A DNA stretch of 64,000 nt from a bacterium (GTDB lineage: Bacteria > Pseudomonadota > Alphaproteobacteria > Rickettsiales > RI-342), in the NCBI GenBank assembly GCA_016124905.1, contig WGMV01000013.1:1-64000 (forward strand). The letters run 5' to 3'. The translations under genes and the position numbers were made by a program. The notes under the pieces are model-generated. The model was not told the origin of the DNA. It made no database searches and saw only the letters and a list, made by a program, of their open reading frames with translations. Below, in pieces: positions 742 to 2,001 of this stretch (position 1 is the stretch's first letter; the number at the start of each line of letters is the position of its first letter).

Positions 742-768
742 GGCTAGAGCCATCTGGGTCTTGATAAC

Positions 769-916
769 CTCTATCATCGCGGTTCGTGAGACCGTTAATC
801 GCACTCCCTCCCTATGGGCGGGGAGGCATACGCGCATGTTCAGGCGAAAGCCAAAGGCGTATGCGGTCTCTCGATGATAGGCTTATCAACTCCCCGTTCA
901 CCAGAGCCAGGGAGGG
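769..916 (+). promoter_or_regulatory. Structured leader RNA with anti-Shine-Dalgarno, upstream of the lipoprotein gene
   Basis: Nested perfect helices are visible: 771-779 pairs with 872-880 (9 bp), 788-794 with 864-870 (7 bp), and 827-833 with 857-863 (7 bp). Inside the last lies GGC-GAAA-GCC (843-852), a GNRA tetraloop hairpin. CCCTCCC (806-812) is exactly complementary to GGGAGGG (910-916), the ribosome binding site of the gene at 920. The same C-tract can instead pair with GGGCGGGGAG (816-825), and CGGT (780-783) can pair with ACCG (791-794), so alternative folds exist. I recognise no known riboswitch class. It could also belong to the right end of the insertion element. Confidence 0.5.
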
Positions 917-919
917 CTT

Positions 920-1234
920 ATGAGAATCGTTACCGTTTTTCTTTCATGTGCAATACTAAGTGGGTGCGCCTTGGTAGAATCATCTCAAAATACCAAAATG
1001 GCTCAAGAGCAATACATCAAATGCCTGCAAGAAAACGCCAAGGTGGAGAAATGCGAAAACCTTAGAGCAATTTATCTGGTTAGACAGCAAGAGCTTGACC
1101 AGATAATGAATGCGTTGAAGCAAAACCCGCCCCCTCAGAATAATGAGCGTGATAGTCCAAGCCATTGGAATTATAATATGAACGGACAGTTCTATAGCTG
1201 TCAAAAGACAGGCAATACAGTTAATTGCTTTTAG
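920..1234 (+). CDS. Small predicted lipoprotein, unknown function
   Basis: The 104-residue product begins with a lipoprotein signal, MRIVTVFLSC then LSGC with the lipobox cysteine at residue 16, so the mature protein should be anchored in an envelope membrane. The rest is hydrophilic with several Cys (C35, C45 region, C98, C103), which may form disulfides, and a polar Pro/Asn linker. The start is supported by GGGAGGG at 910-916. Base composition is more AT-rich than the genes after 2.2 kb. The last 14 bases overlap, tail to tail, a 52-residue ORF on the other strand. No family recognised. Confidence 0.75.
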   Translation: MRIVTVFLSCAILSGCALVESSQNTKMAQEQYIKCLQENAKVEKCENLRAIYLVRQQELDQIMNALKQNPPPQNNERDSPSHWNYNMNGQFYSCQKTGNTVNCF

Positions 1235-1379
1235 GGGATTCGGATTCTGGCTTTGCCATGGCTTCAGCCAGCTTGTCAAACAACTCTTCATCGCCCGCAG
1301 ACGGATGCTCTTTGCAGAATCGCTTGAGCTTATTCTGTTTACGGGCTTCTTCTAGGCTTAGGTATTTACCGATGCCCAT
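1221..1379 (-). CDS. Short conserved-looking protein (52 aa), unknown function
   Basis: ATG at 1379-1377 reads MGIGKYLSLEEARKQ and ends with TAA at 1221. The product is charged and probably helical (FCKEHPSAGDEELFDKLAEAMAK). It overlaps the end of the upstream membrane-protein gene by 14 bases in another frame, which suggests translational coupling, and its own tail overlaps the lipoprotein gene on the opposite strand by 14 bases. The YLSLEEAR...FxKEHPSxGDExxFDxLxxAMAK pattern resembles short uncharacterised proteins I associate with alphaproteobacteria; that is from memory and not searched. Confidence 0.65.
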   Translation of the reverse strand: MGIGKYLSLEEARKQNKLKRFCKEHPSAGDEELFDKLAEAMAKPESESPKSN

Positions 1380-1926: not shown

Positions 1927-2001
1927 CTAGCACAGATGTCATATTCTCTTTCAAGCGTCAACATATTACATACCTTCAGGGGATAATGTTGCGTTTTTGC
2001 A

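Follow-up and report, generated by a model that had tools for sequence, protein, structure and literature searches.

Positions 756-896 (+) of the window, by which we mean the whole stretch of 64,000 nucleotides of bacterial DNA that was analysed, are a member of an RNA family whose structure is supported by sequence comparison. We regard this RNA as belonging, in divergent form, to an extended sRNA-Xcc1 superfamily. We consider it fairly probable (roughly 0.6) that it is a cis-acting leader of that superfamily, with the lipoprotein gene it precedes being carried as cargo of an IS1595 element. The family is common in Alphaproteobacteria and had previously been only half-recognised, but can now be described with switching states that are open to experimental testing. 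Its members are widespread and lie shortly before genes that are plasmid-borne, phage-like or carried by transposons.

Architecture of the leader RNA

The structured core comprises 153 model positions, with 55 pairs, and scores 89.4 and 99.9 bits against covariance models R1 and R2, respectively. Folding of the 184-nt region compared with shuffled sequences gives a z value of -2.75 (1/200), which is modest on its own. The original prediction placed a multi-helix leader RNA directly upstream of the gene, and this has been borne out by homologs that covary in 51 of the 55 pairs. Its four helices (771-779/872-880, 788-794/864-870, 827-833/857-863 and 843-845/850-852) are all exact in the window, as are the positions and complementarity of the CCCTCCC tract (806-812) and the GGGAGGG ribosome site (910-916) ahead of the ATG at 920. 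As a description of the family structure, the first, third and fourth of these helices hold and correspond to P1b, P4 and P5, whereas the second is private to the window copy. There, GAGACCG has an alternative pairing with 864-870, at a place where relatives carry P1c and a hairpin called P2. Absent from the earlier proposal were P1 (761-767/883-889, within the strands 761-769 and 880-889) and a competing helix formed by 816-825 and 890-899. P0, P1c and P2 are weak in the window copy. Based on the homology of the relatives' 3′ half to the Rfam family RF02221, the segment from 816 to about 899 is the counterpart of sRNA-Xcc1 (Table 1).

Table 1. Positions of the leader RNA components and neighbouring elements in the window.
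Feature	Position	Strand	Remarks
IS1595/ISXO2 transposase, truncated by contig start	1-741	+	PF12762, E 2.7e-41
Outer P0	757-759/892-895	+	
P1 5′ strand TTGATAACC	761-769	+	Partner 880-889; compensatory changes GATAA/TTATC, GAGAA/TTCTC, GGAAA/TTTCC
P1b 5′ strand, candidate copy-specific tag TATCATCG	772-779	+	8/8 paired in window
Variable junction P1c/P2: CGGT 780-783, ACCG 791-794	780-794	+	Worst-paired region of the family
P3 hairpin 5′ strand CTCCCTCCC, containing the C-tract 806-812	804-812	+	State A partner 816-825
Switch strand GGGCGGGGAG (also written GGUCGGGGAG)	816-825	+	Partner 804-812 (state A) or 890-899 (state B)
P4 826-833/857-864 (8 bp), apical P5 843-845/850-852, GAAA loop	826-864	+	Alignments of relatives
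P1b 3′ strand CGATGATA	872-879	+	Within the sRNA-Xcc1-like half
3′ tail CTCCCCGTTC	890-899	+	Outer P0 in state A; pairs with 816-825 in state B
Ribosome binding site GGGAGGG	910-916	+	Complementary to 806-812; -16.4 kcal/mol
Putative lipoprotein gene, 104 aa, MRIVTVFLSCAILSGC..., putatively leader-controlled	920-1234	+	ORF
Small accessory ORF of the IS, convergent with transposase; right border of cargo site	1221-1379	-	Beside transposase in ~40 relatives
Right inverted repeat of the IS ACATACCTTCAGGGGATAATGTTG	1968-1991	.	Resembles repeats with 8-bp target duplications in ~35 related loci

Homologs and covariation

The check proposed with the original prediction (a search of Rfam followed by an alignment of homologs) gave no Rfam match, and revealed homologs whose stems covary. 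Specifically, no match was obtained with Rfam at its cut-offs across the whole window, or at E values up to 5 for positions 500-1200, and BLAST uncovered no repeats of the window sequence in its own genome. The initial signals of a family were plain blastn matches to an unannotated leader on a Singulisphaera plasmid (74% identity, E 4e-15), to Shinella plasmids, and to a leader in another alphaproteobacterium that lies upstream of a different lipoprotein gene. Further queries with those matches reached plasmids of Rhizobium, Agrobacterium, Nitratireductor, Paracoccus and Neorhizobium, and overall the plasmid homologs are distributed among Rhizobiaceae, Paracoccus and a planctomycete. Model R1, built from a hand alignment of ten sequences with a common fold, matches 43 of 385 alphaproteobacterial genomes. 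Model R2, built from 58 matches, finds the RNA in 30 of 299 genomes across the phylum, gammaproteobacteria among them, and in 56 of 131 genomes from the order to which the window belongs, with up to 22 copies per genome. Three copies are present in the window's genome by covariance model, namely the window copy and two more, and three viral-contig loci also carry the RNA.

In the hand alignment of ten relatives, paired cells make up 96% and covariation scores 0.498, compared with 0.168 after shuffling. The alignment of 101 relatives, which was fitted to the model and leans towards it, has changes on both sides of the 51 covarying pairs and 92% of cells paired (66% when shuffled), and slid controls on this alignment all fail; the hand-fitted alignment of ten sequences gives the same result. 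Wobble cells are G.U in 540 cases and A.C in only 117, and therefore the folding molecule is the + strand RNA. Moreover, among homologs in unrelated contexts the RNA is always on the strand of the downstream gene.

Several loci have unusual arrangements. On the Shinella sumterensis plasmid NZ_CP132306.1 (L111), a group II intron (ltrA) resides directly before the RNA and, by comparison with the intact copy L101, seems to replace or split its first ~23 nt. Another locus (L195) has two full RNA copies in tandem (1216-1361 and 1501-1644) ahead of one gene, and copies lie 1.1 kb apart on contig C46 of genome G096.

Relationship to sRNA-Xcc1

It had originally been stated that the RNA matches no known class. 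This view should now be revised, as the RNA is a distant relative of sRNA-Xcc1 through intermediates. The window gives no RF02221 match at the gathering score, nor any with an E value up to 5 between positions 500 and 1200. Gammaproteobacterial members give sub-threshold RF02221 matches across their 3′ half, and there are intermediates that match both models: one locus (G733) scores 69.9 bits where the cut-off is 53, several G096 copies score 47-50 bits, and these hits coincide with R2 matches. The connection also appears from the opposite direction. When R2 was applied to twelve RF02221-selected loci that had been picked without regard to a 5′ half, eight matched at full length (E<=1e-5) and two more matched weakly. 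At these twelve loci, the upstream DNA pairs better with the 3′ part of its own sRNA than with that of the others (0 of 5000 permutations). Because most Rfam-selected loci also carry a base-pairing 5′ half, we infer that the annotated 88-nt sRNA-Xcc1 looks like the 3′ half of a leader of ~150-190 nt, produced by processing or by an internal start. The full-length leader would thereby correct the Rfam family boundaries of sRNA-Xcc1.

The 88-nt species was detected by Northern analysis in Xanthomonas, the only place where its ends were mapped (PMC2996969). sRNA-Xcc1 has also been described upstream of symE in integron cassettes (PMC12444791), and a Xylella genome has seven copies; transcripts have been seen in Xylella, and islands there carry C4 and sRNA-Xcc1 near each other (PMC12189769). 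Carriage on mobile DNA is shared by the family examined here, as evidenced by the IS1595 cargo site and the plasmids. Three further RF02221 loci are present in the window's genome.

Two mutually exclusive folds and their placement before genes

The idea of a two-state layout was right in principle, although the relevant partners are those of the switch strand, both of whose pairings are kept by covariation in relatives. Across 101 loci, own partners outperform swapped partners when strand 816-825 is paired with the P3 5′ strand (z -12.9) and when it is paired with the 3′ tail (z -16.2), compared with +0.6 for a control pairing; these swap tests ignore the relatedness of loci and so the z values overstate significance, but the direction is clear. 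In the window, the energies are -13.4 kcal/mol for the P3 helix and -17.2 kcal/mol for the state-B helix, which has 10 pairs. Comparison therefore supports the view that the RNA can adopt two exclusive folds, and mutually exclusive structures within a leader are what is looked for in a riboswitch or attenuator.

The distance between the end of the RNA and the start codon has a median of 57 nt (interquartile range 47-65) over 131 loci and is at most 80 nt in 116 of them, with distance and strand taken by an ORF picker that looks only downstream on the same strand. Promoter-like sites occur within 90 nt upstream of the RNA at 98 of 185 loci, compared with 35 when shuffled. Of these 185 loci, 137 have a hairpin starting at the tail (33 +- 5 shuffled), which is followed by a U-tract in 52 (0.7 shuffled). 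Given that 120 of the 137 hairpins overlap the state-B arm by 3 nt or more, many family members look like attenuators. The window copy is without a terminator hairpin.

In the window, the C-tract is an exact match for masking the ribosome site, as originally envisaged, and CCCTCCC has a more favourable pairing with this site than with each of 130 others. Support for such masking does not extend to the family as a whole, and many relatives carry a terminator-like hairpin instead. Pairing of the P3 5′ strand with the ribosome site was at first suggestive (own versus swapped z -4.0 overall), but the within-genome test (p 0.077) did not uphold it, and control parts of the RNA were equally strong, including the P1b 3′ strand (-4.4) and likewise the tail.

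A stem that differs in nearly every copy

Stem P1b is paired at 8/8 positions in 65 of 101 copies and at 7/8 in another 30, and yet its sequence is distinct in all 18 of the 18 copies of genome G096 and differs in nearly every copy elsewhere. Among disjoint closest pairs of copies that are at least 80% identical elsewhere, identity is 0.35 in P1b versus 0.83 in P4 (lower in 25/25, p 6e-8), and this value of 0.35 is the level found for random pairs. A second set gave 0.37 versus 0.64 (p 1e-5). Between closely similar copies, both strands of P1b have changed and the pairing has been retained. At two loci of one genome (L280 and L281), for example, the downstream proteins are nearly identical and the P1b stems are unrelated.

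The simplest reading of these data is that P1b has undergone repeated replacement under selection for difference, because compensated drift of the ordinary kind would not be expected to run so far ahead of P4. Judged by its sequence behaviour, P1b looks like a self-recognition tag. Cross-pairing of P1b strands within a genome is not below that between genomes (0.494 versus 0.467), and therefore the support covers the absence of P1b conservation and not active avoidance among copies. To our knowledge, no other family of bacterial leader RNAs has a private stem in every copy. If P1b is a specificity tag, mobile genes could tell their own copy from others by using RNA.

The window's genome carries the RNA or RF02221 loci at G000:C3:37674-37824, C43:9771-9918, C11:137065-137152, C2:103140-103227 and C39:8157-8242, and P1b stems differ among the copies examined. 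In genome G045, which holds loci L253 and L257, the P1b 5′ strand of L257 no longer matches its own 3′ strand and equals that of L252, as if the 5′ half alone had been exchanged between copies.

Genomic setting and downstream genes

The window opens within an IS1595-type element whose left end is off the contig. In ~40 relatives the transposase is followed immediately by the small convergent ORF, whereas the window and six relatives have an intervening stretch of 250-660 bp with unrelated sequence, which defines a cargo site. An inverted-repeat search without a requirement for target duplications gave noise, and 8-bp duplications were used to place the IS ends. Since the right end is placed near 1968-1991, the leader RNA and the lipoprotein gene are cargo inside the element. 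This location, with the right inverted repeat ~1 kb downstream, also argues against the suggestion that the RNA is a structured end of the IS1595-type element, and IS-end or MITE identity was rejected on this basis. The RNA is missing from the other cargo-bearing IS relatives. Searches of 88 related genomes, and of plasmids, phages and viral contigs, returned no relative of the lipoprotein.

Cargo content varies from copy to copy and includes GIY-YIG-like, zinc-ribbon and other small proteins. The small accessory ORF (~50 aa, RFCKEHP...ELFDKLAEAMAK) is without a Pfam match, is conserved across several phyla at loci such as L010, L012 and L045, and often overlaps the stop of the IS1595 transposase. 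Just beyond the right IS end, at ~2001-2040, there is a perfect long inverted repeat (CAACTCCTGCATTTGC ATC GCAAATGCAGGAGTTG) that is probably a terminator.

Genes downstream of the family members have no uniting pathway, and many are typical of mobile DNA. They encode prepilin-like proteins (9 of 109), resolvases and large serine recombinases (4), at least 4 HTH regulators, and antirepressors with P22_AR_N (3), Bro-N (3), Rha (3) or AntA (2) domains, in addition to porins, sugar enzymes, lipoproteins and unknown plasmid proteins. A lipobox-like start is present in 13 of 131 downstream genes. A defence set was considered and set aside, as PADLOC matches were scattered and mostly to HTH regulators.

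Proposed mechanism and alternative explanations

For a cis-acting leader we propose the following mechanism. State A has the 5′ and 3′ halves paired through P0, P1 and P1b, with strand 816-825 held in hairpin P3. State B has this strand paired to the tail (890-899), while the 3′ half folds alone in the manner of mature sRNA-Xcc1. Switching between the two would set expression of the downstream gene. For relatives with a U-tract, the tail doubles as the 5′ arm of the terminator hairpin, and so the fold should decide read-through. For the window copy, which is without this hairpin, state B would instead free CCCTCCC to cover the ribosome site. These effects proposed for state B on terminator and ribosome site would carry opposite signs. 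More speculatively, P1b might let the 3′ half of a copy find only its own 5′ half, either in cis or once it has been set free as a small RNA, and the private pairing might preclude cross-talk between copies. It is tentative, and somewhat to be doubted, that there is a complete self-recognition system in which a 3′ half of the sRNA-Xcc1 form, freed from its transcript, would affect other transcripts in trans only if their 5′ halves bear the same stem. If true, this would constitute a barcoded switch for dosage, incompatibility or immunity that is insulated from up to ~20 sister copies per cell.

The published view of sRNA-Xcc1 as a trans-acting sRNA stands against the cis-leader reading. A free-standing sRNA of this kind, for which the place upstream of a gene would be incidental or would be where its own terminator ends the transcript, accords with the Northern data and mapped ends of the 88-nt RNA from Xanthomonas (PMC2996969), with the Xylella transcripts (PMC12189769), and with the terminator-like hairpins after the RNA at 52 loci. 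We nevertheless judge it unlikely, given that start codons lie tightly 47-65 nt downstream and that the 5′ half is conserved and paired with the 3′ half, even at loci selected by Rfam. Furthermore, only ~20-40 nt separate the U-tract from the gene, and therefore there is hardly space for another promoter. Antisense control resembling that of C4 RNA is doubtful. Under this reading, as in phages P1 and P7, the leader would be cut to release a short RNA whose pairing with the downstream ribosome site, both in cis and in trans, confers immunity. Gammaproteobacterial members precede Ant, Rha and BRO antirepressors, the P3 5′ strand has CUCC with a perfect 7-nt match in the window, and Xylella islands hold C4 near sRNA-Xcc1 (PMC12189769). 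In contrast, the window copy precedes a lipoprotein gene rather than an antirepressor gene, such as is found in several gammaproteobacterial relatives, there is no Rfam C4 match, and complementarity to ribosome sites within genomes is no better than that of controls.

A ligand-binding riboswitch or a thermosensor would make use of the leader position, the two exclusive folds, the terminator overlap and the conserved unpaired core (GUAUG, AAAG). This possibility seems quite unlikely to us because the downstream genes share no common pathway, and because a ligand sensor would have no use for a private stem that is hypervariable. No observation favours a thermosensor in particular. Far less probable is a single-stranded-DNA promoter of the Frpo kind that is active on plasmid entry, even though several plasmid copies are near relaxase or conjugation genes. 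A template-strand fold would show A.C wobbles and is ruled out by the observed asymmetry, and many copies lie off plasmids, with ordinary promoter-like sites upstream. Finally, it is exceedingly improbable that the RNA is a structured IS1595 end or an inserted miniature transposon. The long imperfect inverted repeat adjoining the transposase is what such an element would present, but this explanation conflicts with the placement of the IS end and with other cargo-bearing IS copies that carry no RNA, and it is excluded by homologs that occur in other settings in a single orientation to the gene.

Comparison with known systems

The C4 antisense RNA (RF01695) of phages P1 and P7 is a leader upstream of antirepressor genes that is complementary to the ribosome site, and it gives immunity in both phages. 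The fold of the family described here differs from that of C4. Transcription attenuators and terminator riboswitches share with this family the exclusive helices that overlap a terminator hairpin before a gene. Unlike those systems, the leader family has unrelated downstream genes and a unique stem per copy, and the window copy is without a terminator. Frpo and leading-region single-stranded-DNA promoters (PMC11541004) are likewise multi-hairpin elements upstream of plasmid genes, some of them near relaxases, whereas in the leader family it is the + strand RNA that folds, and its members are found far beyond plasmids.

The closest known relative is sRNA-Xcc1, which is also linked to mobile DNA and has the same order of parts: the state-B helix, an AUAC/GUAUG segment, a small AAA hairpin and a GGUUUU..CCCCGG end. 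The Rfam model of this RNA spans 87 nt, is read as a trans-acting sRNA and misses the window. In contrast, the leader extends over ~150-190 nt and adds a conserved 5′ half, two states, an overlap with the terminator and a copy-specific stem.
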